DNA of 64,000 nt from Aquimarina sp. AU474 (GTDB lineage: Bacteria; Bacteroidota; Bacteroidia; Flavobacteriales; Flavobacteriaceae), in assembly GCF_900312815.1 (NCBI RefSeq), contig NZ_OMPE01000006.1:248001-312000 (forward strand), given 5' to 3'. The notes under the pieces were generated by a model that worked only from the letters and a program-made list of their open reading frames with translations, ran no database searches and had not been told where the DNA came from. Shown here in pieces: positions 14,068 to 45,319 of the stretch. Each line of letters begins with the position of its first letter. The stretch's first letter is position 1. Made by a program: the position numbers and the translations under genes.

Positions 14068-14093
14068 ACATAAAGGTCTTTCAAGGATATAAT

Positions 14094-14127
14094 AAAAACC
14101 GATACAAATTAATTTGTATCGGTTTTT
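14094..14127 (+). terminator. Intrinsic terminator of the nqr operon
   Basis: ACCGATACAAAT is mirrored by ATTTGTATCGGT with a minimal TA loop and is followed by a T-run. It lies 27 bases after the nqrF stop. Confidence 0.9.
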
Positions 14128-14128
14128 A

Positions 14129-14136
14129 TATTTTTG
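14129..14136 (+). promoter_or_regulatory. Bacteroidetes -7 box for the DUF4846 gene
   Basis: TATTTTTG fits TAnnTTTG and starts two bases after the nqr terminator, 17 bases before the ATG at 14153. Transcription of the downstream gene would therefore be largely separate from nqr. Confidence 0.45.
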
Positions 14137-14152
14137 AATATAAATTAATCAT

Positions 14153-24582: not shown

Positions 24583-26169
24583 TTAATCTAATTTTTTTAC
24601 AGTTATGTTAGTGCCATCTGCTACTGTGTTGGCTGTACCACTAGTTGTTCCGGTTCTATTAGCGCCTAATAGTAATTCATCTCCATTACTTAAAGATATT
24701 ATAAGGTTTTTAGAAGCGCTATAATCATCCCCATTGTTATCTAAGGTAACATATGTTGACGATCCGTCGATTTCTACCAGATTTAAAAAGATAATTGTTT
24801 CTACAGTACTGTTATTATTATTTCCTGCATTAGACGCAAACGTAACAGAATATCCTATTTCATAAATCCCATCTTCAGGTATTGTTACTCTATCATTATT
24901 TAAGACAAATCCGCTTTGATTTGTTCTTTGTGTATCTAAATTTAAGATATTATAGGTGCCAAAACCTTCATTGGCAGCTGTTCCACCGGCATTGTCATAA
25001 GCTTCAAACACTCTAACATTGGGTGCGTTGTAAAAAGCTCCCCCATCGGTGCCTGTTGTAATATCATTATTGGCATCAGCACTTACAATCACACTACTAC
25101 CAGAATCACTATTGTTATTTATTTGTTGCCAGTTCGTACCATCACTTTTTATCCATAACATAGATTCGTTGGTAATGGTAGATTGATTTGAATTGGTAAG
25201 ATCAACATAGGTGCTAATTGTTCTATTTACATTAGTTCTATTTTTAATAACATACATTCTACCTTCACACGTATTGGCGGCGGGTAGAGTTATGTTATGA
25301 GTACCAGTAATCACTATGGTATGGTGATCTTCAGTTAAAGTCAGATTTCCTGTTGTATTAAGTATAGAAGTAGAAAAAGACCCTTCGAGTTGCAAAGTAG
25401 AATTTGCAATTGCAAAGCCAGCAGATGAATCATCATAATCAGCATCTACAGGAACCTCTTGTGGATTAAGATTTATACCAAACCGGGTAGTTGCATCTGC
25501 AGTGTTGTTACTTCCTTGAACCCTAAAAAACTCTCTATTAAATTGCCCTCGTCTAAAATCATATCGTTTAAATATAATGGGTTCTGCACCATCGTCGCCA
25601 ATAATAAACTCTAACCTTCCATCATTTGCTGGCCCAGCAGAACCTATTTCAAACAAATCTGAACCTCCTGTACTTCCTTTTAATCTAAAGCTTCCATTTG
25701 TGGTTGTAAAAAAAAGAGGTTTATAAAACCCGGCTCCAGAAGCAGCAAATTGTAAGGCCGAAACGTTTCCGTCTCCATTAACGAAGACTAGAGGCTGATC
25801 ATCATCGGTATAATCAGGAAATCCTTGAGTTAACCCCAGAGTTTGTCTACGTCCAAATCGCAAGAGGGGTAAATTGTTAGAGCGTATCTCCATAGCAACA
25901 TCATCAATATGTCCCAAAAAAGAAGTAGTGGGTAAACCTGTATTACCATCTACTAACCAGTTATCATTGCTAGTGGAGACCCAATTGGTACCATCATAAA
26001 CAAATATCTTACCTTCTTCAAGATTATATAAAATAGATCCTGTAGATGCAGCAGTAACAGCGTTCATTTCTATATTAGTAGCTGCGGTAGGTAATCCCAT
26101 AACCGAAAACTCGTCGATTTGAGAAAAAATAGATTGTGTAATAAGTAGTAGGAGTAATAGTTTTTTCAT
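24583..26169 (-). CDS. Large secreted protein with C-terminal C1q/TNF-like domain
   Basis: Start at ATG 26169 (MKKLLLLLLITQSIFSQ), which begins the signal peptide; the frame is open to 26199. The 528 residues include an N-terminal head with GSILYNLEEGKIFVYDGTNWVS, a motif shared with the proteins at 30123 and 31293, a middle section of beta-rich repeats with TLTEDHHTIVITGTHNITLPAAN, and a C-terminal jelly-roll (about 390-528) with EDGIYEIGYSVTFASN and LSNGDELLLGANRTG, resembling the C1q/TNF-like fold of bacterial exosporium and fibre-tip proteins. It is probably a trimeric surface fibre, which is inference. No T9SS sorting domain was recognised. Confidence 0.65.
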   Translation of the reverse strand: MKKLLLLLLITQSIFSQIDEFSVMGLPTAATNIEMNAVTAASTGSILYNLEEGKIFVYDGTNWVSTSNDNWLVDGNTGLPTTSFLGHIDDVAMEIRSNNLPLLRFGRRQTLGLTQGFPDYTDDDQPLVFVNGDGNVSALQFAASGAGFYKPLFFTTTNGSFRLKGSTGGSDLFEIGSAGPANDGRLEFIIGDDGAEPIIFKRYDFRRGQFNREFFRVQGSNNTADATTRFGINLNPQEVPVDADYDDSSAGFAIANSTLQLEGSFSTSILNTTGNLTLTEDHHTIVITGTHNITLPAANTCEGRMYVIKNRTNVNRTISTYVDLTNSNQSTITNESMLWIKSDGTNWQQINNNSDSGSSVIVSADANNDITTGTDGGAFYNAPNVRVFEAYDNAGGTAANEGFGTYNILNLDTQRTNQSGFVLNNDRVTIPEDGIYEIGYSVTFASNAGNNNNSTVETIIFLNLVEIDGSSTYVTLDNNGDDYSASKNLIISLSNGDELLLGANRTGTTSGTANTVADGTNITVKKLD

Positions 26170-26293
26170 TATAATGATTTTTGTCATACTAAAACACAAA
26201 TACCATTGAAAAACTATTATTATTCTAGGATAAAGTAGTTTTAGTAATTTATAATATTATTCCACTTATAGCTCGATAAAGTGTCATTAATTC

Positions 26294-26324: not shown

Positions 26325-27473
26325 TTACCTATTAATATAAAGATATCCGGCTTGATCTTTTCGACCTTCGATTTTAAATACGTAGTAATAAGTTCCGACA
26401 GGTAATTCTTCACCTTTCGCGATAGTAGCTCTACCTTCAGAAACTCCTGCCCACGAATTATCATATCCTTTTTTATTATATACTTCAACACCCCATCTAT
26501 TAAAAATAGATAGTTCATTATTCGGAAATTGAGCGATACCTTGTATAATGAAAGTATCATTAAGACCATCTCCATTTGGAGATACAGCAGTAAATATCTC
26601 TAGATCACCATCCAATAGAATATCTGAAGTACCAAATGTTATTACAATATAATTGTCTGGTATCATAAGTTCTGATATAATTTGACCATTGTTTAAATCT
26701 CCTGATACAGAAGTGTTTCCAAGATTTACCCATTGTTCTAAATTTCTATCCCACCCAACAACTCTAAGATTCGTAAGATCGTTAACTAATGTTGGGATAT
26801 TACTATTGTCATCCCAAGTAAGCGTTACTCTAGTTTCTACATCTCCGTCCAAATCCCAAAATTCAAAAGTGCTTATTCCAAATAGTAAATCACCAAAATT
26901 ATTTGTATTAAAACTACCAGGAAAAAAATTAGGAGAATTTGGATCTTCAAAGTAATATGCGCCATTAGCTGTATTAACAGCTGCTTGACTTTGGATGCTC
27001 ATTGGTCTTAATCTAAAATCATCTCCTACAGGAAAAGTAAAATCCAATAACCCTGTCATAGATGCATAACCATCTACATATCGATCATCGTTTTCTCCTA
27101 AATATGGAGCGTCATCTATATAATCTAAAGAAACATTTTTTCTATCTCTTGGAGTTTGTACTCTACCATTAACAAATTCTTGAAAATTACTAACCCCCAT
27201 ACTTACTTCAAGGAAAAGATCATTAGCAACGTCAATCTCTACATCATGAAAAACTGGTCGGTTATCTCCAGAAACAGTTAGACTTTCAGTGTCACTATAA
27301 AAACCAGTGAAGCCTACGTTTTGGTCAAAAGATCCATCATTAATTACATCTACATGAAAACCGATGGCTCCTTGGTTATGGATTTGTACATCTCCGAAAT
27401 TATGAAACGCTTCTTGAGCGAAGGGAGTAAATGATGATAGAAAACAGGTTGTTAAGAATATTATTTTTTTCAT
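26325..27473 (-). CDS. Secreted protein with gliding-motility-type (T9SS type B) C-terminal sorting domain
   Basis: The 382-residue protein starts with a signal peptide (MKKIIFLTTCFLSSFTPFAQ). The C-terminal 90 residues are a textbook type B sorting domain: AVSPNGDGLNDTFIIQGI, NELSIFNRWGVEVYN, SWAG and LPVGTYYYVFKI, ending in GYLYINR. The cargo is therefore exported by the type IX system; SprA, its plug (encoded at 6529) and PorU-like functions would be needed. The N-terminal part is an all-beta domain of unknown function with FHNFGDVQIHNQGAIGFHVDV, a motif seen in other flavobacterial surface proteins. Confidence 0.88.
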   Translation of the reverse strand: MKKIIFLTTCFLSSFTPFAQEAFHNFGDVQIHNQGAIGFHVDVINDGSFDQNVGFTGFYSDTESLTVSGDNRPVFHDVEIDVANDLFLEVSMGVSNFQEFVNGRVQTPRDRKNVSLDYIDDAPYLGENDDRYVDGYASMTGLLDFTFPVGDDFRLRPMSIQSQAAVNTANGAYYFEDPNSPNFFPGSFNTNNFGDLLFGISTFEFWDLDGDVETRVTLTWDDNSNIPTLVNDLTNLRVVGWDRNLEQWVNLGNTSVSGDLNNGQIISELMIPDNYIVITFGTSDILLDGDLEIFTAVSPNGDGLNDTFIIQGIAQFPNNELSIFNRWGVEVYNKKGYDNSWAGVSEGRATIAKGEELPVGTYYYVFKIEGRKDQAGYLYINR

Positions 27474-27812: not shown

Positions 27813-30116
27813 TTAATTTCTATTTACTCTATAAGTTATTTTTCTATTTGTTATTACGGTACGCACAATGACATCAAGTATACCCGTTGTTGTACCTGCT
27901 AATGGTATATTTTGGTCGTTAGTAATATCTCCAGAAGAAACTGTGTTAGACAATGTACCTCCCTGGGTTGCTATAACATCAAAGGTAAATGTACAACTAT
28001 TACCAGCTGGTAAACTCACTCCAGAAATACTAAAATTATCGGATCCACTTACTGCAGTTATAGTGCCACCACAGGAAGAACTTGGATTAGGGGTAGTCGA
28101 TATATTCATTCCTGTAGGTAAATTATCGGTAAGTGTTAAGTTAGTAAGATCCACTCCTGTAGCTGGATTTTCTAAAAGAATAGTTACTGTAGACTCTTCT
28201 CCATATCCTATTCGTGTAGGGGCAAAAGTTTTATTGGCGACAGCAGGGAAAGCCACTTCCGTTGACACTGCGAAAACACCACCCCAAATACCTTCATTTG
28301 CACTTCCTAAATCTACATCTAAAGAAGTAGCATTATTTGGTACAAGTCCCGTAGCATCAAAAATATCAATATCTAGACCCCAATTATAGCTTTGATTTGG
28401 GTTTCTACCTCCAACATCTACACCAAATTTTGAAATTGTACTGTTTAATGTATTGTTTGCGGGGTTTAATCCATTAGAAAGAGCGGTACCGTTAATAGCA
28501 ACAAAATCACCAATAAAAGCGGCACCTGCTTCACCGTCAAAACCAAAATACCCGGAGTCAGTATCGAATGCTCCTGAAGATGGGGTTAGTAAACCAGTAA
28601 CTGTAAACGAATCGTTTGCTCCAAACCCAAAAAAGTCAAAACCATCCCAGATGCTAACACTTCGTGTGATATCAGCTGGGTTTTCATATATTATAATCAT
28701 GGTCCAACCACCGAAAGGCCCGGTAAAAGCACTTCCCGTAGTTAAGGCTATGTCTGCGATAGTATAAGATCCAGAGCCGGCTCCTTGAACGAGGCTTGTA
28801 ACATCTGCATAAGATTGAAAAACGGCCCACCCATTAAAAGATGAATTTTCATAATTTGAGATGTTTGCAGTAATTGTATTATATGTGGCAGATCCAGGAA
28901 CTCTAAATCTTACTTGATCAGTACTAAGTATTGAGGGATCTGGATTGTTAATTCCTCCAAAAGAAGAACTGTAATTTCCTCCCCAATATAAACCCGCCCA
29001 TGTAACAGTGGCGCCGACGGGTAGAGTAAGATCCGCACTACTTGAGTTAACAGTGGTTCCATCAATAGATGCATATCCCATAACCACAGGTGGATTATTG
29101 GCCACAGGAGCAGCGCAATTTGCTGTACAGGTAAGATTTGTATTACCAATCATATCAAAATTACCTCGTACATTAAATGTAATTCGTTCCTCATAAGGAC
29201 GAGGATTATCGGTTTCATTATCAGTAATCGTTATTGTAGCTTGATCTGTTATGTCTACAGCGGGATCGCTGGTATTTGTAAAACCAATAGAAAATATTTC
29301 ATCAACTTCAACATCACTATCATCCACTATAGCTATATCAATAGTATCAGAATCACCTGCCGTACCCGAAAAAGAAAGACTACCAGAAACTACGTTGAAA
29401 TCGCTACCAGAAAAGGCCGTGCCATTAATTGTATTCACATCTACAGTAAACGGCCCTGAAGCGTTAGTTCCTATATGATTAACGGTTAGACTAACAGTTC
29501 CAGCAGTTTCATTAAAGGTTGCATCGGTTATAGATAATGATGGACCAAAGGTTCCAGAAATTACTAAATTATCGATAACAGCAAATTCTCCTCCTTCAAA
29601 GGTTTGATTACCACCGATTACCTGAAGTCTAAATACGGTATTTGCTGATATAAATGCCGATATATCTTGCGTGAAATTTCCATTATTTGTTCCTACTATA
29701 GTTCCTGCACCTATTTGGGTGAAAGAAACACCATTATTGTTAGACATAAAAATTCCTAATTCTTCTTGTCCACCACCAAAAACATCTAATCCATTAGCTA
29801 CCCAATCAAACGATAAAGTGACCGATGCTGCACCACTAAGATCAACTGTTCTGTTGATTCCGTGTCCAGTTCCTCCAACAAATGCCAAAACATTAGTATT
29901 GCCACTTACGGTTCCTAAAAAGATAAAGGCATCTCCAGTTGTAGGAGATCCATTATCATTGGTTTCTATCCAATTAGTGGACCAAGTACCAGTACCATCA
30001 TTTCTATTATAAGCTTGAGTAGTAAAATTATCGGCAAAAGTAGTCTGCCCAGATACAAGTAATGTACCGAACAGAAATACAATAAAGATAAGATATGTAG
30101 TGCTGGATAATTTCAT
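27813..30116 (-). CDS. Large secreted adhesin-like protein with Calx-beta and DUF11-like domains
   Basis: A 767-residue secreted protein (signal peptide ending near LLVSGQ). Regions in order: an N-terminal jelly-roll-like domain with TWSTNWIETNDNG and VTLSFDWVAN, a Calx-beta domain at about 190-300 (FNETAGTVSLTVNHIG...DSDVEVDEIFSIGF), a middle DUF3344-like part with WAGLYWGG and GGWTMIIIYENP, and a C-terminal DUF11/DUF7933-like domain (NKTFAPTRIGYGEESTVTI). It ends TVITNRKITYRVNRN, an arginine-rich tail I associate with flavobacterial surface proteins rather than a known sorting domain. It follows the gene at 30123 by 6 bases, so the two are cotranscribed. Confidence 0.75.
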   Translation of the reverse strand: MKLSSTTYLIFIVFLFGTLLVSGQTTFADNFTTQAYNRNDGTGTWSTNWIETNDNGSPTTGDAFIFLGTVSGNTNVLAFVGGTGHGINRTVDLSGAASVTLSFDWVANGLDVFGGGQEELGIFMSNNNGVSFTQIGAGTIVGTNNGNFTQDISAFISANTVFRLQVIGGNQTFEGGEFAVIDNLVISGTFGPSLSITDATFNETAGTVSLTVNHIGTNASGPFTVDVNTINGTAFSGSDFNVVSGSLSFSGTAGDSDTIDIAIVDDSDVEVDEIFSIGFTNTSDPAVDITDQATITITDNETDNPRPYEERITFNVRGNFDMIGNTNLTCTANCAAPVANNPPVVMGYASIDGTTVNSSSADLTLPVGATVTWAGLYWGGNYSSSFGGINNPDPSILSTDQVRFRVPGSATYNTITANISNYENSSFNGWAVFQSYADVTSLVQGAGSGSYTIADIALTTGSAFTGPFGGWTMIIIYENPADITRSVSIWDGFDFFGFGANDSFTVTGLLTPSSGAFDTDSGYFGFDGEAGAAFIGDFVAINGTALSNGLNPANNTLNSTISKFGVDVGGRNPNQSYNWGLDIDIFDATGLVPNNATSLDVDLGSANEGIWGGVFAVSTEVAFPAVANKTFAPTRIGYGEESTVTILLENPATGVDLTNLTLTDNLPTGMNISTTPNPSSSCGGTITAVSGSDNFSISGVSLPAGNSCTFTFDVIATQGGTLSNTVSSGDITNDQNIPLAGTTTGILDVIVRTVITNRKITYRVNRN

Positions 30117-30122: not shown

Positions 30123-31217
30123 TTATTTAACTACGAAAACCACATTGATTAATGTGTTGAAATCTAGAGGTGTACCTACAATATTATAGGTCATTACACC
30201 TTCGTTAACTCCATCTCCAGTACCACCAATGGTAATATTAGAAAAAACAGCGGGGTCGGCAAAAGTTACATAGTAATAAAGTTCATCTCTATTGTATATA
30301 GGAATGGTACCAGGTGCACCATTGCTAGAAGCTGAAGTTGCTGGATTTGCCAGCGTAAATTGATCAACATATTCGTCATATAAATCTTCTGTGAACCCTG
30401 TTCCTGTAGTCGATGCATTAATAGTTATCGAAGGAGGATAAAATATTCTGGCTGCTTTTGAAGTGATAGGAGCAATGTCTTGTATTACGTCTTCTACAGT
30501 GGCCTCCATTGCACCATCACCATCCACATCTACAGGAGTATCAGAATTAACCTCAGACGCATCTTGATCATCCGTGTCTACTATAGTAGAAGGATCTATG
30601 GTTACTACGTCTCCATCATTTTCAATGCCTAGAAATCGGGTAGCAGCATTATTATCAAATTGAAACGTATTTGCAGTTCCATATTGTGAAAATTCTATTT
30701 GATTGCTGTTTTGAAGGGCCAAAGTTTTATTTAAATTATCGGCATTCCCATCATTTCCTCCAGCGTAAAAATCTAATCCATTCGAGTTGCCACTGCCTGC
30801 CGAACCTAATACAATTGCAGTAGGGTAGGCGTTTCCAGAATTCCGGAAGGCAATACCAACACTATTTGCATTATTTGTTCTTCGTAAACTTAATGTTGTT
30901 CTGGTATCACTGCTTATGTCAAAATTTAATTGATTTGCAGCCATGTCTACTGTGCGCTCTCCATTTAGCGCTCCATTTGTATTATAAATATTTTCTCCAT
31001 TTACAACCTGCCAACCTGAACTGGTAAAACGATAAATTTGATCATCGGCTAGATTGTAAACCACGGCACCAATTTGTGGAGTTAAAATAGCGTTGATTTC
31101 TGTTAAATCAGTAGCATTAGGTAAACCTAACAACGCATTTGCGTCATTAGGACCTATTTGAGAATGTGCAACATTCATCAATGCTATAAATAATATGTAT
31201 AGAGGTGCTTTTTTCAT
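30123..31217 (-). CDS. Secreted protein with the shared flavobacterial head motif (unknown function)
   Basis: A 364-residue protein with a signal peptide ending VAHSQ. The segment LGLPNATDLTEINAILTPQIGAVVYN...DDQIYRFTSSGWQVVNGE matches in pattern the head of the proteins at 24583 and 31293 (GSILYN/GALVYN plus a W-x-x element). A middle region of fibre-like beta repeats (LSLRRTNNANSVGIAF) is followed by an acidic DVDGDGAMEA stretch of Ca-binding type, and the last 110 residues form a beta-rich terminal domain. No family was recognised. It lies between the collagen-like gene and the adhesin in one probable operon. Confidence 0.6.
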   Translation of the reverse strand: MKKAPLYILFIALMNVAHSQIGPNDANALLGLPNATDLTEINAILTPQIGAVVYNLADDQIYRFTSSGWQVVNGENIYNTNGALNGERTVDMAANQLNFDISSDTRTTLSLRRTNNANSVGIAFRNSGNAYPTAIVLGSAGSGNSNGLDFYAGGNDGNADNLNKTLALQNSNQIEFSQYGTANTFQFDNNAATRFLGIENDGDVVTIDPSTIVDTDDQDASEVNSDTPVDVDGDGAMEATVEDVIQDIAPITSKAARIFYPPSITINASTTGTGFTEDLYDEYVDQFTLANPATSASSNGAPGTIPIYNRDELYYYVTFADPAVFSNITIGGTGDGVNEGVMTYNIVGTPLDFNTLINVVFVVK

Positions 31218-31292: not shown

Positions 31293-34200
31293 TTAAAAAT
31301 CAATAACGATAAACATAAATTCTAAATCAATATCATCTTTTTGAGTGGTACCATTATCGCTATCTCCAATATTCACTCTAAACCCAGTGGTAGACTGACT
31401 ATAATATGTGATACCAGGATCATCATAATCTTGTCCTGTATTTCCTGGACAATCACCACCACAATCTAGTATAGAAAGTTGAATGATATAATTGGCATCA
31501 GGCATAGGTGATCCAACCGGGAATAGTACTTCATAGTCACCTTCATTTAATCTAGAAACGGTTGCGTTCATTATTTTTAAAGCAGTTCCATTACCTGCGA
31601 CTTTACCCATTGCTTTTATGAATGTATCACCCATAGCTCCTGTTGGTCCTGTAGGCCCAATCGAAGTTGCACCTGTAGGTCCCGCAGGTCCTTGATTTCC
31701 TGTCGGCCCGGTAGGTCCTTGATTTCCTGTCGGTCCAGTAGGTCCTTGGTTACCTGTCGGTCCAACTGGTCCTTGATTTCCTGTAGGTCCAACTGGTCCT
31801 TGGTTACCTGTAGGTCCAACTGGTCCTTGATTTCCTGTAGGTCCAACCGGTCCTTGATTTCCTGTAGGTCCAACCGGTCCTTGGTTACCCGTAGGTCCAA
31901 CTGGTCCTTGATTTCCTGTAGGTCCAACTGGTCCTTGGTTACCTGTAGGTCCAACTGGTCCTTGATTTCCTGTAGGTCCAACCGGTCCTTGATTTCCTGT
32001 AGGTCCAACTGGTCCTTGGTTACCTGTAGGTCCAACCGGTCCTTGATTTCCTGTAGGTCCAACCGGTCCTTGGTTACCCGTAGGTCCAACTGGTCCTTGA
32101 TTTCCTGTAGGTCCAACTGGTCCTTGGTTACCTGTAGGTCCAACTGGTCCTTGGTTACCCGTAGGTCCAACTGGTCCTTGGTTACCCGTAGGTCCAACCG
32201 GTCCTTGGTTACCTGTAGGTCCAACTGGTCCTTGATTTCCTGTAGGTCCAACTGGTCCTTGATTTCCTGTAGGTCCAACTGGTCCTTGATTTCCTGTAGG
32301 TCCAACTGGTCCTTGGTTACCCGTAGGTCCAACCGGTCCTTGATTTCCTGTAGGTCCAACTGGTCCTTGATTTCCTGTAGGTCCAACTGGTCCTTGGTTA
32401 CCTGTAGGTCCAACTGGTCCTTGGTTACCCGTAGGTCCAACTGGTCCTTGGTTACCCGTAGGTCCAACCGGTCCTTGGTTACCTGTAGGTCCAACCGGTC
32501 CTTGATTTCCCGTAGGTCCAACCGGTCCTTGGTTACCTGTCGGTCCAACTGGTCCTTGATTTCCCGTAGGTCCAACTGGTCCTTGGTTACCTGTAGGTCC
32601 AACTGGTCCTTGGTTACCCGTAGGTCCAACTGGTCCTTGGTTACCTGTCGGTCCAACTGGTCCTTGGTTACCCGTAGGTCCAACCGGTCCTTGATTTCCT
32701 GTAGGTCCAACCGGTCCTTGATTTCCTGTAGGTCCAACCGGTCCTTGATTTCCTGTCGGTCCAACTGGTCCTTGATTTCCTGTAGGTCCAACTGGTCCTT
32801 GGTTACCCGTAGGTCCAACCGGTCCTTGATTTCCTGTAGGTCCAACTGGTCCTTGGTTACCTGTAGGTCCAACCGGCCCTTGATTTCCTGTAGGTCCAAC
32901 CGGTCCTTGGTTACCCGTAGGTCCAACTGGTCCTTGATTTCCTGTAGGTCCAACTGGTCCTTGGTTACCTGTAGGTCCAACTGGTCCTTGGTTACCCGTA
33001 GGTCCAACTGGTCCTTGGTTACCCGTAGGTCCAACCGGTCCTTGGTTACCTGTAGGTCCAACTGGTCCTTGATTTCCTGTAGGTCCAACTGGTCCTTGAT
33101 TTCCTGTAGGTCCAACTGGTCCTTGATTTCCTGTAGGTCCAACTGGTCCTTGGTTACCCGTAGGTCCAACCGGTCCTTGATTTCCTGTAGGTCCAACTGG
33201 TCCTTGATTTCCTGTAGGTCCAACTGGTCCTTGGTTACCTGTAGGTCCAACTGGTCCTTGGTTACCCGTAGGTCCAACTGGTCCTTGGTTACCCGTAGGT
33301 CCAACCGGTCCTTGGTTACCTGTAGGTCCAACCGGTCCTTGATTTCCCGTAGGTCCAACCGGTCCTTGGTTACCTGTCGGTCCAACTGGTCCTTGATTTC
33401 CCGTAGGTCCAACTGGTCCTTGGTTACCTGTAGGTCCAACCGGTCCTTGATTTCCTGTAGGTCCAACTGGTCCTTGATTTCCTGTAGGTCCAACTGGTCC
33501 TTGATTTCCTGTAGGTCCAACTGGTCCTTGATTTCCTGTAGGTCCAACTGGTCCTTGATTTCCTGTAGGTCCAACTGGTCCTTGGTTACCCGTAGGTCCA
33601 ACTGGTCCTTGATTTCCTGTCGGTCCAACCGGTCCTTGATTTCCTGTAGGTCCAACCGGTCCTTGGTTACCCGTAGGTCCAACTGGTCCTTGATTTCCTG
33701 TAGGTCCAACTGGTCCTTGGTTACCCGTAGGTCCAACTGGTCCTTGATTTCCTGTAGGTCCAACCGGTCCTTGATTTCCTGTAGGTCCAACTGGTCCTTG
33801 GTTACCCGTAGGTCCAACTGGTCCTTGATTACCCGTAGGCCCAGTAGGTCCTTGATTTCCTGTAGGTCCGGTAAGATTTATTGTGGTTACCGTACCATCT
33901 TCTGCAGTATATCTAAAAACTCCACCACCAAGATCTTCTAGTGTAGAGTTAGTTTCGGTAATGCTTCCTCCACCATTAGATAAAGTAATAGTATTACCGG
34001 TTTTACTTAAAATTTGTATTTCATTAGTTGGATCTGGATCAGAATCATTAATAAGGGAAGTAAGGTCAATTGAACCTCCATTTTCAAGAGTAAGAATATT
34101 AGTCGAAGAATCGAAACTAATTTGTTGATCATCATTTCCAGTACATAAGCTACTCCAAGTGTTATTGTTGTATTGAAAAATACAATTGTTTGTTGTATTG

Positions 34201-34400
34201 TATACTAACGCTCCATTAAGTGGAGTGATAGCATTCATTTGCGCAGTTGTTACTCTCGTAAGAACTAGTGTTCTGTCAGAGCTTTCTAATTCTAGTAAAG
34301 AGGATGCATCTATTAAATCAGGATTGTCACCAATCTTAACCTGAGCTTGAGCACTGGCTAAAGATAAAAATAAGATTATGAGGAGTAATTTTATCTTCAT
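31293..34400 (-). CDS. Collagen-like secreted protein with 248 Gly-X-Y triplets
   Basis: Start at ATG 34400 ([20 protein letters not shown]), a clean signal peptide; the frame opens at 34427. The 1035-residue protein has a head of about 180 residues ([34 protein letters not shown]) that also occurs in other flavobacterial fibre proteins, a collagen-like region of 746 residues and a C-terminal domain of about 110 residues ([23 protein letters not shown]) resembling tail-fibre/lectin-type beta domains with four cysteines' worth of CGGDC context. The order head-stalk-tip suggests a trimeric surface filament. Export route is not visible: no T9SS domain. The stalk has no charged residues in its repeat. 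Confidence 0.85.
31692..33869 (-). repeat. 27-bp tandem array encoding 80 nine-residue collagen-like units
   Basis: Counting from the first GPT triplet (33869) to the last GNQ (31692) gives 242 triplets: one GPTGNQ and 80 nonamers, 77 of them GPVGPTGNQ and 3 GPTGPTGNQ. With the flanking GPA, GPT and [14 protein letters not shown] part the collagen stretch totals 248 triplets with one two-residue (SI) break. At DNA level two synonymous versions alternate, GGAAATCAA and GGTAACCAA, plus CCA/CCG and ACA/ACG variants. The sequence is otherwise perfectly in phase, so slippage in whole units keeps the frame. Confidence 0.95.
31972..33440 (-). repeat. Segmental duplication of about 630 bp inside the collagen array
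   Basis: Bases 31972-32603 and 32809-33440 are identical at all positions except one (T at 32040, C at 32877; GGA to GGG, synonymous). The copies are offset by 837 bp, exactly 31 nonamers, and cover about 23 nonamers each. The surrounding units do not share the same order of synonymous variants. A second, shorter periodicity of 270 bp (10 nonamers) is visible within each copy. Confidence 0.88.
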
Positions 34401-34844: not shown

Positions 34845-35717
34845 TTACTCTTCAAATAAGTGATTAATATATTCCTTAGTTTGATTTTTTATTAAGGAAT
34901 CGATAAAAACGAATTTATACTTTATTGAAGATTTATCTTCCGATAGAACTAGTACTTTATTTTCTTTATTCTTAAACCAAAAGCCATTTCCAAGAAAAAT
35001 GATCCCATTTAGATCTTTATACTCAAAACTAGATGTTTTGTACCCTAAATCACCTCCGATCCATATTATATTTATACCCTTTTCTTTTAGTTTTACTAGT
35101 TCGGGATATATTTCATGTTGAAAATTATTTCGATTATGACAATAATCACATTTTCCTTTGGGACCATTGCATACTTTATTTATTTGCCCATCCATAATGG
35201 GATGTTGATCCATAAAAATCAACTTATGGGATATAATTATTATATTTTTAGATGAAGTATTTTTTAAAATATCTAAGAAATATTGTTTTTGTTTTCCAAC
35301 AATATTACTTAGACTGTCCTGTGTGTCTAACGTTATAAAAGTAGTGTTGTTGGTTTTGTATGAATGATATTTGTTTTTTCCTGTAAGATTCTTAAAATTT
35401 TCGTTAGTGGTTACATCATGATTACCAACACTCCATAATGTATTTTTACTTTTTAAATTAAAAATTGAATCTATATGATTTATGAAGTCGTCTTGAAAAG
35501 AGTCTACTCCTAGGTCTCCGCCTAATAAGGTCATTTCGTATAGTTCTAAATTTAAATCATATACTTTTTTGAAAATTCGATCATTAGTACTTGTTCTTGT
35601 ATGTGACAAAAAAATATATGTAGAAGATGAATTATTATTGTTTTGCGACAAAGGAGCACAGCTCAAAACACAACATAGAATTCCTGAGGACATCATATGT
35701 TTTATGAAGTTTCTCAT
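34845..35717 (-). CDS. Metallophosphoesterase-like lipoprotein with degenerate metal motifs
   Basis: The 290-residue protein has a lipoprotein signal ending VLSC (Cys20). Calcineurin-like motifs follow: GGDLG, GNHD and SHKLIF are in place. The first motif (normally SDxH) reads SHTR at residues 38-41, so both metal ligands are replaced, and the last (normally GHxH) reads GGDLGY. An insert with CNGPKGKCDYCHNR adds three cysteines and a histidine that could bind zinc or form disulphides. The enzyme may be inactive or use a different metal centre. It is the last gene of the DUF4956-CotH-VTC operon, 9 bases after the VTC gene. Confidence 0.75.
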   Translation of the reverse strand: MRNFIKHMMSSGILCCVLSCAPLSQNNNNSSSTYIFLSHTRTSTNDRIFKKVYDLNLELYEMTLLGGDLGVDSFQDDFINHIDSIFNLKSKNTLWSVGNHDVTTNENFKNLTGKNKYHSYKTNNTTFITLDTQDSLSNIVGKQKQYFLDILKNTSSKNIIIISHKLIFMDQHPIMDGQINKVCNGPKGKCDYCHNRNNFQHEIYPELVKLKEKGINIIWIGGDLGYKTSSFEYKDLNGIIFLGNGFWFKNKENKVLVLSEDKSSIKYKFVFIDSLIKNQTKEYINHLFEE

Positions 35718-35726
35718 TTGTTTGAT

Positions 35727-36452
35727 TTAAGTGATTTGATAATTAATGAAATCTACACCTCTTACATATTTAGAGTTTTTTGATAGTCTTGAATTGATTT
35801 CTTGTGTAAGTGTCCTACTTTCAATATCATGTTCTATATCATATTTTAACTCTAGAATAATTTCATCGATTTGATTTTTAATTATATTATTTTGATTAAA
35901 AGTATTTGGGTTGTAAAACTTCATATTGAAGTCTAGAGTAATTCTAAATTTTTCACAGTTTGATAAAAAATACTTTCTTTCATAACTGTTATATAGAGTA
36001 GGGTGAAGATTTTCTAGTTTTGAGACTAATTCACGATGTTCAGTTTTTTCAAGATGTTCTATTAGAGACGAATTAATTTCAGTAGCAGATACTGAATCTA
36101 AATCAATCAAGAAATCTTTTATTTTGTAACTAATCTTGTCTCCAACTTCTCCAAATTTCTGTTTAATTTCTATAGTTGGTTTTTTGACTTCAGAAAAAAC
36201 ATCATTATACCAGCGAAGTCTATATTTTTTTCGTGTTCCATCTCCGGATACATTTTCTTTGTAGAAGGAATAATTGTAATCATCAAAGTAAATATTGTTT
36301 ATTGTTCTTTTTTCAAAGATTTCATGAAAACAAAAGGAATTGGTGTTGATTTGAGTAGCTATAAGATCATCAAGATGTATGTTTTGAAAAATAAACTTTC
36401 TTTCATACCTAAAATTATGTTTACTGATTTTAGGATTATTTACTGCTTTTAC
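35727..36452 (-). CDS. VTC-domain polyphosphate polymerase-like protein
   Basis: The VTC domain makes polyphosphate from ATP in eukaryotic vacuoles; bacterial versions are found with CotH and DUF4956. I place the start at ATG 36452 (MVKAVNNPKISKHNF), which overlaps the CotH gene by 17 bases; ATG 36467 is an alternative. The 241-residue product shows the tunnel motifs: FRYERKF, NNIYFDD, KKYRLRWY, PTIEIKQK, YERKYF, RITLDFNM and IILELKYD, with the basic and acidic residues of the triphosphate-tunnel fold. Substrate and product are untested. Confidence 0.85.
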   Translation of the reverse strand, partial: VKAVNNPKISKHNFRYERKFIFQNIHLDDLIATQINTNSFCFHEIFEKRTINNIYFDDYNYSFYKENVSGDGTRKKYRLRWYNDVFSEVKKPTIEIKQKFGEVGDKISYKIKDFLIDLDSVSATEINSSLIEHLEKTEHRELVSKLENLHPTLYNSYERKYFLSNCEKFRITLDFNMKFYNPNTFNQNNIIKNQIDEIILELKYDIEHDIESRTLTQEINSRLSKNSKYVRGVDFINYQIT

Positions 36453-39400
36453 CATATTCTTTACCATACATTTGATCAATAACTTTATCCGATACTGTTT
36501 GCGCAGCAATATTGTCAACCAATAATTGTGATCCGTTTTCAATTAAATGATCTAATTCATTGTTTTTTAGGATTAACTTTGAAATATCAATTGATCCAGT
36601 ACCATATTCTGGTTTTTTTTGAAAAGAAGATAAACCTAATCTTGTATTAGAAATATGAACATCCTGTAAGGAAATTTTTGAGAGATCTTTACTTACAATT
36701 CCTATTTCTCCTCCAGATATTACTATGTCTTTACCGGTAATAGTACTTGATTCTCCTGCACTAATTGCTTTGTCTGAAGAGTTTTTAATCTCAATATTAT
36801 TTATAAAAATTGAAGACCCAGAAATATCAATACCATCATTACCATTATTTGTAAATATAGTATTTTGAATAGATCCTTCTACAAAATCACCATCAAAAGC
36901 GTCAGAAAATGTGTTTTCGAAAGAGGAATGATTAATAGAGAAATTAGATCTAATAATATTTAAGCCATCTTCACATCTGTTATTTCTGAAAGTAGAATGT
37001 GATATTTGAACATCAGTTTCATGAAAATTTACTGCACCGGATAAATCCCATACATCAGAATTTGGATTGGATAAATTAATGAATTCGCAAAATTGTAGTA
37101 TTGATTTAGTTTTGCTGCTTGAAACAAAAACTCCGGCACCAGAATTATTTGAAGAGAATATTGTAATAGGTAGTTCTTTAGTTCCCTCAGCTATGATTGG
37201 TGAATATGATATTATCGATGCATTATTTATTAGATCTAAGGAAACGCCCTTTTCTATAATCACTTTGTGATTAGCAGGAATAAAAAGTGTTTTGTTCACT
37301 TGATAATTTCCTTTTGGTAAGATTATTTGATTCTGATTAGTTTTTATAAAACCAAAATCGCTATAATTTGAACTAGATGATTTTTTATACGAAATTATAT
37401 TATTCTTAAGTTTTTTGTTGGTCGAACCATATGGTATTATAGCGCTTTTATTGTAAAAAGATACTCCTTGGAGTTTGTGTTTTATTTTTAATTTCTTGAC
37501 ATCTTTTGGGAAACGAAATCCACCCTTTTTATTTTTTTTAGAGACAAAAGCATTGTCAAAGGAATTTTTTAAATCAAATGTGATAAGTTGTTTCTCTTGT
37601 GGAGAAATAATTTGAGAAGAAGAGAACGGTTTATTTAATATTTTTCCATCTATATGTTCGAGGTTTTTTATTACTATAGGAAAGTTTGTTATGTTTGAAA
37701 TGGCAAGTTGAATCTTATTTTCATCAAATTGTACTAAGTTGGATATGATAGTGTTAGCGGGATCGATTTGTTTCTTGATAAAGTTGCTGTTATAATCCAA
37801 AACAGAAAGATTGGTGTAAGTTTTTAATTCTGTTTTTAAGCTAGCAGATATTAAGTTTAAATCCTTATAAAACTCATCAACGAAATTTTTTATAAATTTT
37901 TGACTACTTATTAATTCGAGTTTCTCGAGAAGTTTCTGTTTATATATTGGATCATTATCCGAAAACGGATAATTTATTATTTTATCGATTCTAAATCCAC
38001 CATGAGAGTCAAAAGCAATAGGTTCTAGTTTATTTGTGATAGGATTAAAGTAAATTCTTAGGTTATGATCTATTAATCCATGATGTCCTCCAAATAAATT
38101 TGACAACGCTACAAACATCGTGAGTTTATCGATATCAAATGCTTCCGAAATTTTTAGTTCTCCTTTTTTAATACCATTCAATAAATCTTTAGCAATGTTA
38201 AGTTGTTTTGATAGTTTAGGATCTGAAAGAACTCTAGATTCATCAAAAACTTTGATAGGTAAATTTTTGGCTTTTTGAAGTTTTTGATTCCAAGTTTTTA
38301 TATTAAGACCTAAATCAAATGATTTTTTTCGATCTTCCCATAGAAATGATTCGTGAAAAGAAAGTATAATGCCTTCTCTTCTTTTATTGTTTTCAATTAA
38401 ATGTTTGTCAAAGGATTCTTCAAACCCCATGATTCCTATAGGAATCAGTTTGGAGCTATTATTCTTAGTTATCTTAAGATCTACATTAATAAAATCATAG
38501 CGCAAGCCTATTAGGCCATTTCTTTTTATAACTTTGTTAAAAAGCCATTCCCATTCATTATTTCTTACTTTGGGATGTTGTATAGAAAATTTTTTCATGC
38601 CTTTTACGGTTTTATCTTCTTCAAGAATAACCCTAAAAGACCATTTTTTTTCATCTTGTAGATGATCAGTCCAGTCACCTTTTAATCTTATTTTTGAAAC
38701 GATTTTATCAGAACTGTTAAAAGAAATAAATGATTTTACAAAATCATCATCTTTTTTTGCTAGAACCCTGCTTTTCAAAGCTTCGTTTCTTCGGTTTTTA
38801 ATTTTGTCAAAATCCTTTTGATCTATGGTAATGGTAAGTTTTTCAAAAATATTTGTGGATTTGTTATTGGATAATATATCAAATTTGACATTGAACACTT
38901 GATATGATCTTCCGAGAGTAGGTTCATATCTACCCGTGTTAAAAAAGTCAATGTTATCTACTTCTATAAATTTACCTAAACTTTCGTGGGTAAATTCTCG
39001 TTGAAAAACATAATATTTTTCATTATTAATAGTGTATTCTTCCGGATCAATATCAGTAAAGTCCATATTGATGTAATTATATGGGTTTACTTTTAAAAGA
39101 TCTTGTTTGTTTTTAGGAAATACATGAATGAAAAATTTATCGTTTAATTGCCTAGGTGTTAGGCTATCTTTATATACATAATAGATTTTGGGAATACTAT
39201 TGATCTTATTAAAATGTATGGTAAACTCTGGGTCTGAGTGGATAACATTAATATTTTCTTTTAACATGTCAAGAATACCATATTCTTTGATGACAGTTGT
39301 GGTGACACTGGTGTCGTGTATACTGCTGGTTGTAATAGTTTGGCTATTATTCCTTTTATTAATTTTTACTTTTAAGCTGATTGTCAGAAGAACAAGGATA

Positions 39401-39456
39401 ATTACCCCTATAGGGATAAGAGTTATTTTTGTGTTTTCTGGTCTTTTGATTTTCAT
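36436..39456 (-). CDS. CotH kinase-family protein fused to a C-terminal parallel beta-helix
   Basis: A 1006-residue membrane-anchored protein: one N-terminal helix (ITLIPIGVIILVLLTISL), then a CotH-like domain at about 190-560 (TITIDQKDFDKI, SKIRLKGDWTDH, WSFRVILE, FSIQHPKVRNNEWEW, IGIMGFEESFDKHLIE, GGHHGLIDHNLRIYFNP, IAFDSHGG), then a long linker and a right-handed beta-helix at about 740-960 with regular INHSSFEN, IQNTIFTNNGNDGIDISGSSIFI turns. CotH proteins are atypical protein kinases of spore coats and surface structures. A beta-helix suggests polysaccharide or surface binding. It is cotranscribed with VTC and MPE genes. Confidence 0.85.
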   Translation of the reverse strand: MKIKRPENTKITLIPIGVIILVLLTISLKVKINKRNNSQTITTSSIHDTSVTTTVIKEYGILDMLKENINVIHSDPEFTIHFNKINSIPKIYYVYKDSLTPRQLNDKFFIHVFPKNKQDLLKVNPYNYINMDFTDIDPEEYTINNEKYYVFQREFTHESLGKFIEVDNIDFFNTGRYEPTLGRSYQVFNVKFDILSNNKSTNIFEKLTITIDQKDFDKIKNRRNEALKSRVLAKKDDDFVKSFISFNSSDKIVSKIRLKGDWTDHLQDEKKWSFRVILEEDKTVKGMKKFSIQHPKVRNNEWEWLFNKVIKRNGLIGLRYDFINVDLKITKNNSSKLIPIGIMGFEESFDKHLIENNKRREGIILSFHESFLWEDRKKSFDLGLNIKTWNQKLQKAKNLPIKVFDESRVLSDPKLSKQLNIAKDLLNGIKKGELKISEAFDIDKLTMFVALSNLFGGHHGLIDHNLRIYFNPITNKLEPIAFDSHGGFRIDKIINYPFSDNDPIYKQKLLEKLELISSQKFIKNFVDEFYKDLNLISASLKTELKTYTNLSVLDYNSNFIKKQIDPANTIISNLVQFDENKIQLAISNITNFPIVIKNLEHIDGKILNKPFSSSQIISPQEKQLITFDLKNSFDNAFVSKKNKKGGFRFPKDVKKLKIKHKLQGVSFYNKSAIIPYGSTNKKLKNNIISYKKSSSSNYSDFGFIKTNQNQIILPKGNYQVNKTLFIPANHKVIIEKGVSLDLINNASIISYSPIIAEGTKELPITIFSSNNSGAGVFVSSSKTKSILQFCEFINLSNPNSDVWDLSGAVNFHETDVQISHSTFRNNRCEDGLNIIRSNFSINHSSFENTFSDAFDGDFVEGSIQNTIFTNNGNDGIDISGSSIFINNIEIKNSSDKAISAGESSTITGKDIVISGGEIGIVSKDLSKISLQDVHISNTRLGLSSFQKKPEYGTGSIDISKLILKNNELDHLIENGSQLLVDNIAAQTVSDKVIDQMYGKEYGKSSK

Positions 39457-39492
39457 ATATTGTCAAACATGTATTCTAAATATCCAGATTTA

Positions 39493-40170
39493 TTAAATAT
39501 CATTACTCACAAAAGTAATGTCAATAGAATTATTAATATTAATCAACTGATCGTTGATCTTTTTAATGGTGTCTAGAGAGGATACATTGATCAAAAAATT
39601 AAAGCTGATTTCTTCTTTAGAATATTTAATTCGTTTTACATCAACTTGTTTCGAATTACCTGTTACTACAGCGCTTATTTGATCGGTAATTTTTGATCTT
39701 TCAGTCTCTTTACAATTTAGATTAATTAATAAATTTTGTGTAAAAGAATTGTTCAATTTCTTTTTACTGAAAAGAACGATGATTAATGTCAGAAAAATAA
39801 AGCCAATAATAGTTGGTAATAATTGATTTGCACCTAACCCTAGGCCAATTGAAATGGCAATAAAGAAATATCCTAATTCTTCGGGTTCCTTAATGGCAGT
39901 TCTAAATCTTACTATTGATAGTGCACCAACTAATCCTAAAGACAGAGCTAAAGAGGATTTTACAATAGAAATAATAATAAAGGTAGTAACTCCTACTAAC
40001 ATTAAAACTTTGGATAGTTGAGATCTATTGGATATCGAACCACCATATTTTATATAGATGATTCGTAAGCAAAAAAGAAGTAATCCACATATAACAATGT
40101 TTATTACAAAGTTTAGGATTGAAAAGTTTTCTTCAAAGTTTAGATTTAATTGATTAATAAAATCGTTCAT
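39493..40170 (-). CDS. DUF4956 membrane protein
   Basis: The 225-residue protein has about four membrane helices (FVINIVICGLLLFCLRIIYI, LMLVGVTTFIIISIV, FFIAISIGLGLGANQ, TIIGFIFLTLIIVLF) with the conserved cytoplasmic loop LSLGLVGALSIVRFRTAIKEPEELGYF that defines DUF4956. The C-terminal 90 residues form a soluble ferredoxin-like domain. In bacteria it is usually next to VTC and CotH genes, as here, where it starts the operon. Its function is unknown. Confidence 0.9.
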   Translation of the reverse strand: MNDFINQLNLNFEENFSILNFVINIVICGLLLFCLRIIYIKYGGSISNRSQLSKVLMLVGVTTFIIISIVKSSLALSLGLVGALSIVRFRTAIKEPEELGYFFIAISIGLGLGANQLLPTIIGFIFLTLIIVLFSKKKLNNSFTQNLLINLNCKETERSKITDQISAVVTGNSKQVDVKRIKYSKEEISFNFLINVSSLDTIKKINDQLININNSIDITFVSNDI

Positions 40171-40282: not shown

Positions 40283-41158
40283 ATGACAAAAAACCTGACT
40301 GTTGTTATACCAGCATTTAATGAAGAAGAGTCTTTAGAATTGTTTTTACCAAAAGTTATACATCATTGTAAAGAGAAAAATTATAAATTAATTGTTGTAA
40401 ATGATGGGTCATTAGATAATACTTTAGAGGTGCTATCTTCTTTTTCAGCACCGGAAGAATTTTTTAAAATAGTTTCACATAAGGTTAATAAAGGATATGG
40501 AGGAGCATTAAAAAGTGGTATCAATGCTTGCGATACTGATTATGTTGTTACGATAGATGCTGATGGTCAGCACTATATGGAAGATGTAGATAGGCTTTTT
40601 TATAAAATTAAAGAAACAGATGCAGATTTGGTTGTGGGGAGTAGAAAGGGGCAATTATCTGCTTCTTGGTTTAGAGGTGTGGGTAAAAGTTTGATTCGTA
40701 CAGTTGCACGTATGCTAATGAAATTGTCAATTTATGATATCAATTCAGGAATGAAGATTTATAATACTGAACTGGCTAAGCAATATCTAAAACTCACACC
40801 TGATACGATGTCTTTCAGCGATATTATTACGTTGACTTTTGTAAATAATAAACATTTGGTTATTGAAGAGCCAATACAGATAAAAAATAGACTCAAGGGT
40901 ACAAGTACAATAGGTGTGAGGACGGCATTTGAAACTGTAATGGAGATCATTAACATTATAATATTGTTTAACCCAGCAAGAGTCTTTCTCCCAATTTCTG
41001 CTTTTTTCCTTGTTTTCGGAACGATATGGGGAGCATATTTTTTTTTCCAAGGAAAAGGGATAAGTATAGGTGCCAGTACATTGATTTTGACAGGTTTAAT
41101 TGTTTTTCTTTTGAGTTTAATTGCTGAACAATTATCTGGGATGAGAAAAAATATGTAA
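40283..41158 (+). CDS. Family 2 glycosyltransferase (polyprenyl-phosphate type)
   Basis: The 291-residue protein is a GT2 enzyme with GT-A fold: VVIPAFNEEESLELFL, LIVVNDGSLDNTLEVL, TIDADGQHYMEDVDRL (the DxD equivalent is DAD) and VVGSRKGQ. Two C-terminal membrane helices (FLPISAFFLVFGTIWGAYFFF and STLILTGLIVFLLSLIAEQLSG) resemble dolichol/undecaprenyl-phosphate mannosyltransferases. It starts a plus-strand run with the deacetylase 10 bases after it. Confidence 0.9.
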   Translation: MTKNLTVVIPAFNEEESLELFLPKVIHHCKEKNYKLIVVNDGSLDNTLEVLSSFSAPEEFFKIVSHKVNKGYGGALKSGINACDTDYVVTIDADGQHYMEDVDRLFYKIKETDADLVVGSRKGQLSASWFRGVGKSLIRTVARMLMKLSIYDINSGMKIYNTELAKQYLKLTPDTMSFSDIITLTFVNNKHLVIEEPIQIKNRLKGTSTIGVRTAFETVMEIINIIILFNPARVFLPISAFFLVFGTIWGAYFFFQGKGISIGASTLILTGLIVFLLSLIAEQLSGMRKNM

Positions 41159-42964: not shown

Positions 42965-45319
42965 TTAATTGTTGCTTTTTCCTTGAGTTTCTTTTTTCAT
43001 TTTTATTGCCCAATTAAGATTGTTTTTTAGTAATTGGTTATTTGAGTTTATTTTAATACCCTTGTTTCCAACTTCAATAGCTTGGTTCCATTTCTTAAGG
43101 GCATTGTACCCTGTACAAGCATTGTTGTATAGATTATCAGAGTTAGGGAATAAACGTATGCCGTCTTTGGCAACTTTTACACATTGTTCATAAAGTTCAT
43201 AATTGTAATACAAAAGACTTAGACTTAGGTAGTTTGCTTCTGAAGGTTCTTTTGCGATGAGAGTAATGAGATTTTGTAGTTCGGATTGACGAGAAATAAC
43301 ATAATTGAGATTGTTTTGAGCCAATTGAAAATCAGGTTTTAATTCGAGAGCTTTATTACAAGCAATAATGGCATTGTCAAATTCTCCCAAAAGGTTAAGA
43401 GCAGAACAAATATTGTTGTATGCTCTATAGGATTGAGGTTGTATTTTTAACACTTCTTTTGCCGCTTCAATAGATTTGAGGTATTGCTTATTCTGATAAT
43501 ATTTAAAACTTAAATCGAGGTATTCTCCTAGAGCCGAACTATTGGATGTTAGTTTCTTTTCGGATTGATGTAGATCTACATTTTTTGTACTAGCCAATAA
43601 AAATCTTTTAGCCTTTAAATCGTTGTTGTCAATTGCCAAAGTTTCTATAGCAAGTTTCTCTAATTCTTTCCATTCACCAGTAACTGAATAAATTTGGAGC
43701 AAAAGATGTCTTGTGGGGATATGAGAAGGTGATAGTGTTTTTGATATATTCAACTTTTCGATAGCTTCAGCAGTTCTAGAATTTTGAAATAAGAAATTAC
43801 CATAATAATACCATGGCGTATAGTAATTTCCACCATAAGTAATGGCATTTTTGAAGTATTGTTCGGCTTTAGTTAAATTTCCTTGTGCATTATATAAAAT
43901 TCCTAAATTGGTATGTAAATAATGATATCTTGGAGCAAGTTTTAGAGCTCTTGTGAAGTAACCTTCGGCAATATCATATTTACCTTTTGACATTTGAGTT
44001 AACCCGTAATTCATTAAACCACGACCATTTTTAGGATTTTTTATAGTAACATCTTTCCATAATGACTCTTCAGAATCCCACACAATGTTTCTTTGATATG
44101 TTCCTATGCTATACATTAGCAGTAGAATAATAGTACTTGCCATTATATAAATGTTTTTTAGTTCATATCGCTTTTTTAAATATGCTACAAATAGCCATAA
44201 AGAATACCCTACGCTAATAATCAGACCAACATAAGGAAAAAACATACGGTGATCATTCATGACTTCGGCAAGAGGGATAATACTTGAGGTTGGAGCAAGT
44301 GAAATAAAAAACCACAATATGCCAAAACTTATAGGGTAATACTTTTTGTTTTTTGATGAGTATAAAGCGATTATTAAGAGTATTATAATAAAGAGTATTC
44401 CCAACAAAAATTTTAGAGACCAAACTGTTTGTAAAACGACCCAATCTGTATCTGCACTTAACTGAATTGGTAAAAATAAACTTCCAAAATAATAGGAGAT
44501 AGATAAAGGTTGAGTAATTAAATATTCAAATGTTTTAGACGAACCAGTGGTAAAAGATTCTGGTGTCATTGTGTTATGAAAAATGTAAACTACAAAGCAA
44601 AAAACAAATGACAACCATACTTTTTTTATAGTTTGTAGTATTGGAGTAATTGATTTTTTTGAAAAGAGGTCGAAAAAATCGAGATTTTTCTCGAATAAAA
44701 GAACGTATACAAAGAATAATGGGGCAAACATAATAGCTAAAGGTTTTGCTAAAGCTCCTATTAATATAGGTATTAAGTATAAATGATATTTTTGAGCTAT
44801 TGATGAGTATTGGTATAAAACAAATGCCAGTATAACAAAGAAAGTGGATTGTAGGTCAGAGCGTGCAATGATATAATTGACCGTTTCAGCCATTACTGGA
44901 TGTAACATATACCATAATGCAATTGCACCAGATATATAGTAATTATATGGGTTTTCAGTGGATATGTTTAAAATTTTTTTAGTAAAAAAGAAAATTAGAA
45001 TTCCTTGCAAAAGAAAGATTATAAATGTAGTGAGGTGGAAAAAGAAAGGTGTATAATCATTTCCCAACCAATAGTCAAATGCAAGCGAAGTAGTTACAAT
45101 TGGTCTGTAGGTTTGGTTTTGTGGTAAAGAACTTATGGTGCTACCATCAGTAAAGAAACTAACTATATTTTTTAAACTCCTAATGTTAGGATTTTCAGTA
45201 ATGGTATGAAAATCATCAAAATGAAAAGCATTATCAAAATGATTTAGATATGTTACTGTAGTAACAATAATCATTACGATGATGAAGAGTAGGTTTTTAT
45301 TTTTAATAAGTAATTTCAA
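42965..45319 (-). CDS. TMTC-like membrane glycosyltransferase with tetratricopeptide repeats
   Basis: The 784-residue protein has about ten membrane helices in the N-terminal half and the GT-C loop FHFDDFHTITENPN with Asp35-Asp36, then QTYRPIVTTSLAFDYWL, as in PMT and TMTC O-mannosyltransferases, followed by DUF1736-like segments. The C-terminal half carries about eight TPRs (GLMNYGLTQMSKGKYDIAEGYF, HTNLGILYNAQGNLTKAEQYF, AYNNICSALNLLGEFDNAI, TRALKLAPRYHYL). The likely activity is sugar transfer from a polyprenyl donor to protein. It converges with the plus-strand GT2-deacetylase genes. Confidence 0.85.
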   Translation of the reverse strand: MKLLIKNKNLLFIIVMIIVTTVTYLNHFDNAFHFDDFHTITENPNIRSLKNIVSFFTDGSTISSLPQNQTYRPIVTTSLAFDYWLGNDYTPFFFHLTTFIIFLLQGILIFFFTKKILNISTENPYNYYISGAIALWYMLHPVMAETVNYIIARSDLQSTFFVILAFVLYQYSSIAQKYHLYLIPILIGALAKPLAIMFAPLFFVYVLLFEKNLDFFDLFSKKSITPILQTIKKVWLSFVFCFVVYIFHNTMTPESFTTGSSKTFEYLITQPLSISYYFGSLFLPIQLSADTDWVVLQTVWSLKFLLGILFIIILLIIALYSSKNKKYYPISFGILWFFISLAPTSSIIPLAEVMNDHRMFFPYVGLIISVGYSLWLFVAYLKKRYELKNIYIMASTIILLLMYSIGTYQRNIVWDSEESLWKDVTIKNPKNGRGLMNYGLTQMSKGKYDIAEGYFTRALKLAPRYHYLHTNLGILYNAQGNLTKAEQYFKNAITYGGNYYTPWYYYGNFLFQNSRTAEAIEKLNISKTLSPSHIPTRHLLLQIYSVTGEWKELEKLAIETLAIDNNDLKAKRFLLASTKNVDLHQSEKKLTSNSSALGEYLDLSFKYYQNKQYLKSIEAAKEVLKIQPQSYRAYNNICSALNLLGEFDNAIIACNKALELKPDFQLAQNNLNYVISRQSELQNLITLIAKEPSEANYLSLSLLYYNYELYEQCVKVAKDGIRLFPNSDNLYNNACTGYNALKKWNQAIEVGNKGIKINSNNQLLKNNLNWAIKMKKETQGKSNN

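Follow-up and report, generated by a model that had tools for sequence, protein, structure and literature searches.

A secreted collagen-like fibre of Aquimarina with an exchangeable stalk and a co-inherited TMTC-like glycosyltransferase

Results

The 64,000-nucleotide stretch of the Aquimarina sp. AU474 genome analyzed here (the window) encodes a secreted collagen-like fibre with a head, a stalk and a tip. This description, first proposed for a surface protein in a first-pass annotation, is well supported, since the protein carries a Sec-type signal, matches Pfam Collagen, has a conserved head and tip, and belongs to a genus-wide set of stalks in which glycine is kept at every third residue. 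Our preferred reading, held with moderate confidence, is that the collagen fibre is trimeric and has a binding tip, and that threonines in the Y position of the Gly-X-Y triplets are O-glycosylated by a membrane-bound GT-C enzyme encoded upstream. A wider proposal, which we put forward more tentatively, is that the locus is modular. Its stalk would be swapped between unrelated repeats, collagen or beta, and whenever collagen was gained or lost, a dedicated GT-C/TPR enzyme would have been gained or lost with it. This bacterial TMTC-like enzyme would be specialised for sugar-coating threonines in collagen triple helices, almost whatever their repeat unit.

Anatomy of the fibre

The fibre gene (31293..34400, minus strand, as are all its parts) was delimited from its open reading frame, the repeat count, Pfam and genus-wide searches with head and tip. 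Read from the Met of MKIKLLL it encodes 1035 residues; the first in-frame ATG lies at 34427. The product begins with a Sec-type signal peptide lacking a lipobox (34344..34400), which was read from the sequence and is conserved in an alignment of relatives. An N-terminal head (33870..34343), defined by sequence comparison, follows and includes a beta-repeat portion resembling the repeats that make up whole stalks in other species. The head model was of low confidence (pLDDT 58) and was not used for fold search. Tandem Repeats Finder, triplet count and Pfam place the collagen stalk, with 80 nine-residue units and edges, at 31665..33869, and a C-terminal tip domain of ~110 residues at 31293..31631 is predicted from model, fold and profile searches to be a beta domain like the tips of phage tailspikes and H-type lectins. 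Neither head nor tip belongs to a named family in Pfam or NCBIfam.

The stalk is built from 77 GPVGPTGNQ units, 3 GPTGPTGNQ units, found at both array ends, and one terminal GPAGPTGAT. It runs for 245 uninterrupted triplets and, after a Ser-Ile break, for 3 more; the first-pass counts of both unit types, of 248 triplets in total and of one two-residue break were thus exact. Proline occupies the X position in 67% of the triplets and threonine the Y position in 35%, while Asp, Glu, Lys and Arg are absent. The stalk would be about 210 nm long if fully helical. Against Pfam Collagen (PF01391) the protein scored 350 bits (cut-off 27.2), and against NCBIfam NF038329 (Scl/SclB) 636.9 bits (cut-off 325), with the best stretch inside the Gly-X-Y region. 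The name SclB was rejected because the fibre, which ends in ...EFMFIVIDF, has no LPXTG cell-wall anchor and the NF038329 match comes through the Gly-X-Y region. No Pfam or NCBIfam model for a type IX sorting domain matched the fibre; such a domain is present on a 382-residue protein encoded downstream.

Fixed ends and changing stalks across the genus

The fibre gene was found at the same place in almost every Aquimarina genome, with a stalk unit that differs by species. Among 58 good genomes of the genus, 57 contain the head and 45 the tip, and collagen arrays are present in 43 scored genomes. Relatives with heads and tips 93-98% identical nonetheless carry different units, and the stalk of the nearest relative is plain GPT. 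Arrays that could be read completely range from 186 to 783 triplets. Over ~9,300 triplets in the genus, every third residue is still glycine while the X and Y residues change, which lends indirect support to a triple helix. Threonine in Y is as low as 16% in G035 and 21% in G034, and stalks almost without proline (GLTGRT, GATGQT) are equally long. The charge of the stalks varies from none to 25% Arg of the X/Y residues, so that the lack of charge is not a rule in the genus; the earlier remark on its absence holds for the window stalk and for some other species only. The same annotation called this stalk one of the most regular, which stands in a loose sense. Relatives are as regular or simpler, making the regularity of the window stalk ordinary within the genus, and a regular bacterial collagen is in itself not new, Bucl1 and Bucl8 being published single-triplet examples (PMC4565658).

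In several species the same kind of head and tip enclose tandem beta-type repeats, e.g. TFTEDGTNLIITDSDGSTVSIPLADIDTDTNTTNS, and tips from outside the genus are found almost exclusively on beta-type stalks. The stalk thus appears as an exchangeable spacer, in which the array expands and is homogenised and the unit is replaced between species, with a Y position mostly rich in Thr or Gln. An extreme beta stalk occurs at the same locus in L053 (G012, 2624-14293), where a 3915-residue fibre carries near-identical beta repeats (TTITENANGTFSYVDEDGSTTTVDVSNLETLTSLALNADNTNLDYVDEDGSTNQINLTTAVQNLE). Genome G053 (L066, L104, L112) contains a beta-stalk fibre together with a second gene, on another contig, with 788 triplets of the GATGQT type.

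Genes around the fibre

Four genes downstream of the fibre, all on the minus strand, recur around it in relatives. The first (30123..31217, 364 residues) has an N-terminal part like the fibre head and is conserved with collagen and beta stalks alike. Pfam and the relatives identify the second (27813..30116, 767 residues) by Calx-beta and DUF7933/DUF11 domains, and the third (26325..27473) encodes the 382-residue protein, with a type IX secretion type B sorting domain (CHU_C) supported by Pfam, NCBIfam and relatives. The fourth (24583..26199, 538 residues), characterised from relatives and Pfam, resembles the fibre head at its N-terminus and matches C1q weakly over residues 273-366, below the Pfam cut-off. 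In some species (L049, L062) its orthologues finish with the fibre tip domain, where the window protein ends differently; neighbouring genes seem to swap tip domains.

On the other side, a block at 34845-40170 (minus strand) separates the fibre from the glycosyltransferase genes and encodes a 290-residue phosphoesterase-like lipoprotein, a VTC domain protein, a 1006-residue CotH-like/beta-helix protein without a Pfam match, and a DUF4956 protein. The whole block is present in the relative G051. Of 66 genomes, only 5 carry the 290-residue gene that adjoins the fibre, and one of these copies has an internal TAA. Beyond the block lies a GT2 gene (40283..41158, plus strand), of which a close copy (62-75%) is found near the fibre in three examined relatives; by its layout the product is presumably polyprenyl-phosphate-sugar-synthase-like.

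A GT-C glycosyltransferase co-inherited with collagen stalks

The GT-C glycosyltransferase gene (42965..45319, minus strand), located 8.6 kb upstream of the fibre gene, was recognised by its motifs and by its co-inheritance with collagen stalks. Residues D35 D36, Y71 R72 P73, R153, K177/K192, D290/D292 and R358 are invariant in 14 homologues, and behind the membrane part the protein continues in C-terminal TPRs from residue ~430 on. These correspond to the layout and motifs of the TMTC enzymes (DD in the first loop, YRP, R, K, D and R, and a TPR tail; PMC7801869), while Pfam GT-C models gave no match to this protein. The enzyme would be expected to use a lipid-linked sugar.

With presence in the genus counted at E below 1e-85, the enzyme occurs in each of the 43 scored collagen-array genomes and is missing from the other 16, so that stalk and enzyme agree in 59/59; one beta-stalk genome has a 27% match elsewhere. 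In every genome where one contig holds both enzyme and head (43/43), the enzyme gene lies 3.0-15.6 kb upstream of the head in the same orientation, and the genes in between vary among genomes. Stalk types were mostly recorded before the enzyme search, G007 and G021 being scored after it from 7 and 4 triplets, and for a few genomes 4-8 triplets at the end of a contig decided the stalk state. Genomes whose collagen is short and irregular (10-18 triplets; G041, G062) were scored as "other", and G053 was scored as collagen on account of its second gene, which has a collagen stalk. With G007, G021 and G053 removed, stalk and enzyme still agree in 56/56. In a phosphoglycerate mutase tree, stalk and enzyme each change 10 times, at least 5 of them on supported branches. 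The best tree gives 10 independent pairs, only 5 of which lie on well-supported branches, and stalk and enzyme agree in all five (sign test p 0.0625, the minimum possible with five).

Outside the genus the enzyme is rare, being found in 2 of 247 other genomes sampled from the family and in none of 395 further genomes sampled from the order. In one of these two, G286, a single contig carries the enzyme, a homologue of the 364-residue gene and a collagen stalk rich in GAT; in the other, G276, both enzyme and collagen genes are present, with no collagen array within ~8 kb of the enzyme. A collagen HMM scan at E 1e-5, a threshold to be read against the ~5e-9 of single 60-residue matches in the window gene, gave a collagen match in 65 of 249 flavobacterial genomes outside the genus, 4 of which genomes have the GT-C enzyme. 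With so many collagen-bearing flavobacteria lacking it, the enzyme is not required for collagen in general.

The co-inheritance suggests that the fibre is sugar-coated. Together with the share of threonine in Y, it makes the earlier statement that the helix has to be stabilised by the bare repeat no longer the best reading. The fibre would be secreted as a homotrimer, with the head at the N-terminus, the tip at the C-terminus and a long collagen triple helix between them. Proline in X, polar residues in Y and, most likely, an O-linked sugar on the Y-position threonines would stabilise the helix. The sugar would be added outside the cytoplasm by the co-inherited TMTC-like enzyme, for which the GT2 at 40283-41158 is a candidate maker of the lipid-linked donor, perhaps.

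A helix that stabilises itself is the alternative with most in its favour, although we consider it unlikely. Proline in X and a hydration network of Thr, Gln and Asn would then suffice, with head and tip holding the trimer, and the GT-C enzyme would be merely linked, modifying a surface polysaccharide or another secreted protein. The proline content of the window stalk is in line with this, as are the polar hydration networks described for Scl and Firmicutes collagens (PMC8968730) and the melting of unglycosylated recombinant EPclA at 42 C (PMC3368898). The interval also contains further genes for sugar and surface functions (GT2, polysaccharide deacetylase, VTC). The equal length of stalks almost devoid of proline argues against self-stabilisation, and mere linkage is hard to reconcile with agreement in every scored genome across at least five supported switches. 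Linkage of stalk and enzyme in one transferred cassette could produce co-inheritance. The 290-residue gene lies nearer to the fibre and is found there in so few genomes that proximity alone does not cause it.

The tip domain

The tip was modelled with a pLDDT of 88. In the fold search its top structures were the tailspikes of phiAB6 (Z 8.8) and Pam1 (Z 8.5), values barely above the level where unrelated models also match. H-type lectins and discoidins followed at Z 6.4-6.8 (discoidin 6.8, Helix agglutinin 6.6, both in the range of common arrangements), and pyocin fibres at 5.3-5.5. The BclA tip structures, jelly rolls of the TNF/C1q type, reached 4.2-4.6, against 8.8 for the tailspike tip. Predicted viral structures matched with E down to 1.5e-7, tail fibres being among the best, and the PHROG tail-fibre profile phrog_3484 matched the window tip with E 1.5e-7 and 22 of 24 tip members (best 9.8e-13). 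The H-type lectin sequence model (H_lectin) matched none of the 24 members at E up to 10, and a sequence search of the PDB with the tip gave no match. The closest named record is that of the uncultured Aquimarina sp. isolate 2-328, whose tip is 97% identical. Weak matches of the tip profile to alphavirus E1 (E 0.0006) were taken as chance, as they cover half the domain and the fold search was unsupportive. The predicted resemblance to tailspikes and H-type lectins suggests that the tip probably binds a glycan or another surface.

The matches to tailspike tips, pyocin fibre tips and the PHROG profile would also suit a phage-tail-derived appendage, i.e. an extracellular contractile injection system or prophage tail fibre with a collagen stalk and a receptor-binding tip, and catalogues of such tail fibres reportedly exist. 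We regard this origin as very improbable: the fibre is made with a signal peptide of its own, its neighbours code for sugar enzymes and secreted proteins, the window showed no recognisable gene for a baseplate, sheath or capsid, and tblastn of the tip against phage records gave no match.

The array at the DNA level

Tandem Repeats Finder resolved the array into 81.4 copies of 27 bp (31672-33869, 91% matches), far beyond chance, and the stalk unit is encoded at one place only in the 4.84-Mb genome. The 77 core units comprise 12 DNA variants. Their six variable positions are all third codon positions and all synonymous, for which P = 2.8e-4 if six positions of the unit were drawn at random, indicating that the amino-acid unit is under purifying selection. 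In the arrays of relatives, too, identity at the repeat period is far higher at codon positions 1 and 2 than at position 3. The third bases of Gly7 and Asn8 occur in the core units as GGA-AAT (39) or GGT-AAC (38) only, the other silent sites being reshuffled.

A block of 563 bp is repeated exactly at 32041..32603 and 32878..33440 (minus strand), 31 units apart, whereas shuffled orders of the same units gave a longest repeat of 9 units. This repeat is the trace of a recent segmental duplication within the array. Together with the silent-only variation it shows an array that enlarges by copying whole blocks but is purged of replacement changes; the regularity of the stalk at the protein level is not accounted for by recent copying alone. 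Drift of a slippage-prone repeat in a dispensable spacer, with regularity from recent duplication only, would fit the 563-bp repeat, the fast turnover of units between species and the contig breaks in relatives, but is hardly credible in view of the synonymous-only variation, the codon-position pattern in relatives and the glycine kept everywhere. Array length is assembly-dependent, the contigs of most relatives stopping within the array. Long open reading frames in other frames over the array (749 residues on the plus strand, 733 on the minus strand), which arise because the 27-bp period is a multiple of three, were dismissed for want of independent support.

Discussion

We found no literature on collagen-like fibres of Aquimarina, and in the literature searched two features are new: a conserved locus at which both the type and the unit of the stalk are swapped, and a collagen stalk strictly co-inherited with a TMTC-like enzyme. 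If our reading of a glycosylated fibre is correct, the genus would provide a natural series of ~40 collagen stalks of varied unit, length and charge, with related heads and tips and one paired enzyme each, and thereby a test bed for triple-helix stabilisation without hydroxyproline. It would also offer a concrete, testable acceptor for bacterial relatives of the animal TMTC enzymes, and a surface fibre with a rewritten spacer and fixed ends.

The closest parallel is the BclA3-SgtA pair of Clostridioides difficile, where sgtA lies immediately upstream of bclA3 and SgtA puts GlcNAc on threonines of the GPT collagen region (PMC7157674). BclA3, like BclA of Bacillus anthracis, shares with the Aquimarina fibre a long Thr-rich collagen-like region on a surface protein (PMC7157674), and in both cases a glycosyltransferase gene is found upstream. 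SgtA is dedicated to the collagen-region threonines, whereas the enzyme described here is a candidate for that role. SgtA has a GT-A fold and uses UDP-GlcNAc, in contrast to the membrane GT-C/TPR enzyme, for which a lipid-linked sugar is expected. In addition, BclA3 and BclA belong to spores and Aquimarina is a Gram-negative flavobacterium, and in family searches head and tip had no sequence relation to those proteins. Glycosylation of threonine is cited as a known way to stabilise collagen in PMC3368898.

The Bucl proteins of Burkholderia likewise combine conserved non-collagen parts with a variable number of GXY triplets (PMC4565658). Each is dominated by one or two triplets, some by a single one (GAN, GAS), and the quoted stalks are short, with up to 63 repeats for Bucl3 (PMC4565658). 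Triplet usage is fixed per Bucl protein across species, whereas the Aquimarina unit is replaced between species and even swapped for beta repeats at the same locus. EPclA, an E. coli prophage tail fibre, also has a collagen stalk, and its C-terminal domain is a trimeric phage-fibre domain (PMC3368898). It is encoded by a prophage, has many charged residues and carries no glycan when produced in the laboratory, in contrast to the Aquimarina fibre with its own signal peptide and uncharged stalk. With the O-mannosyltransferases TMTC1-4, finally, the enzyme shares a GT-C membrane part followed by TPRs and the DD, YRP, R, K, D and R residues. TMTC1-4 are animal proteins, whereas the Aquimarina enzyme is bacterial and gave no match to Pfam GT-C models.
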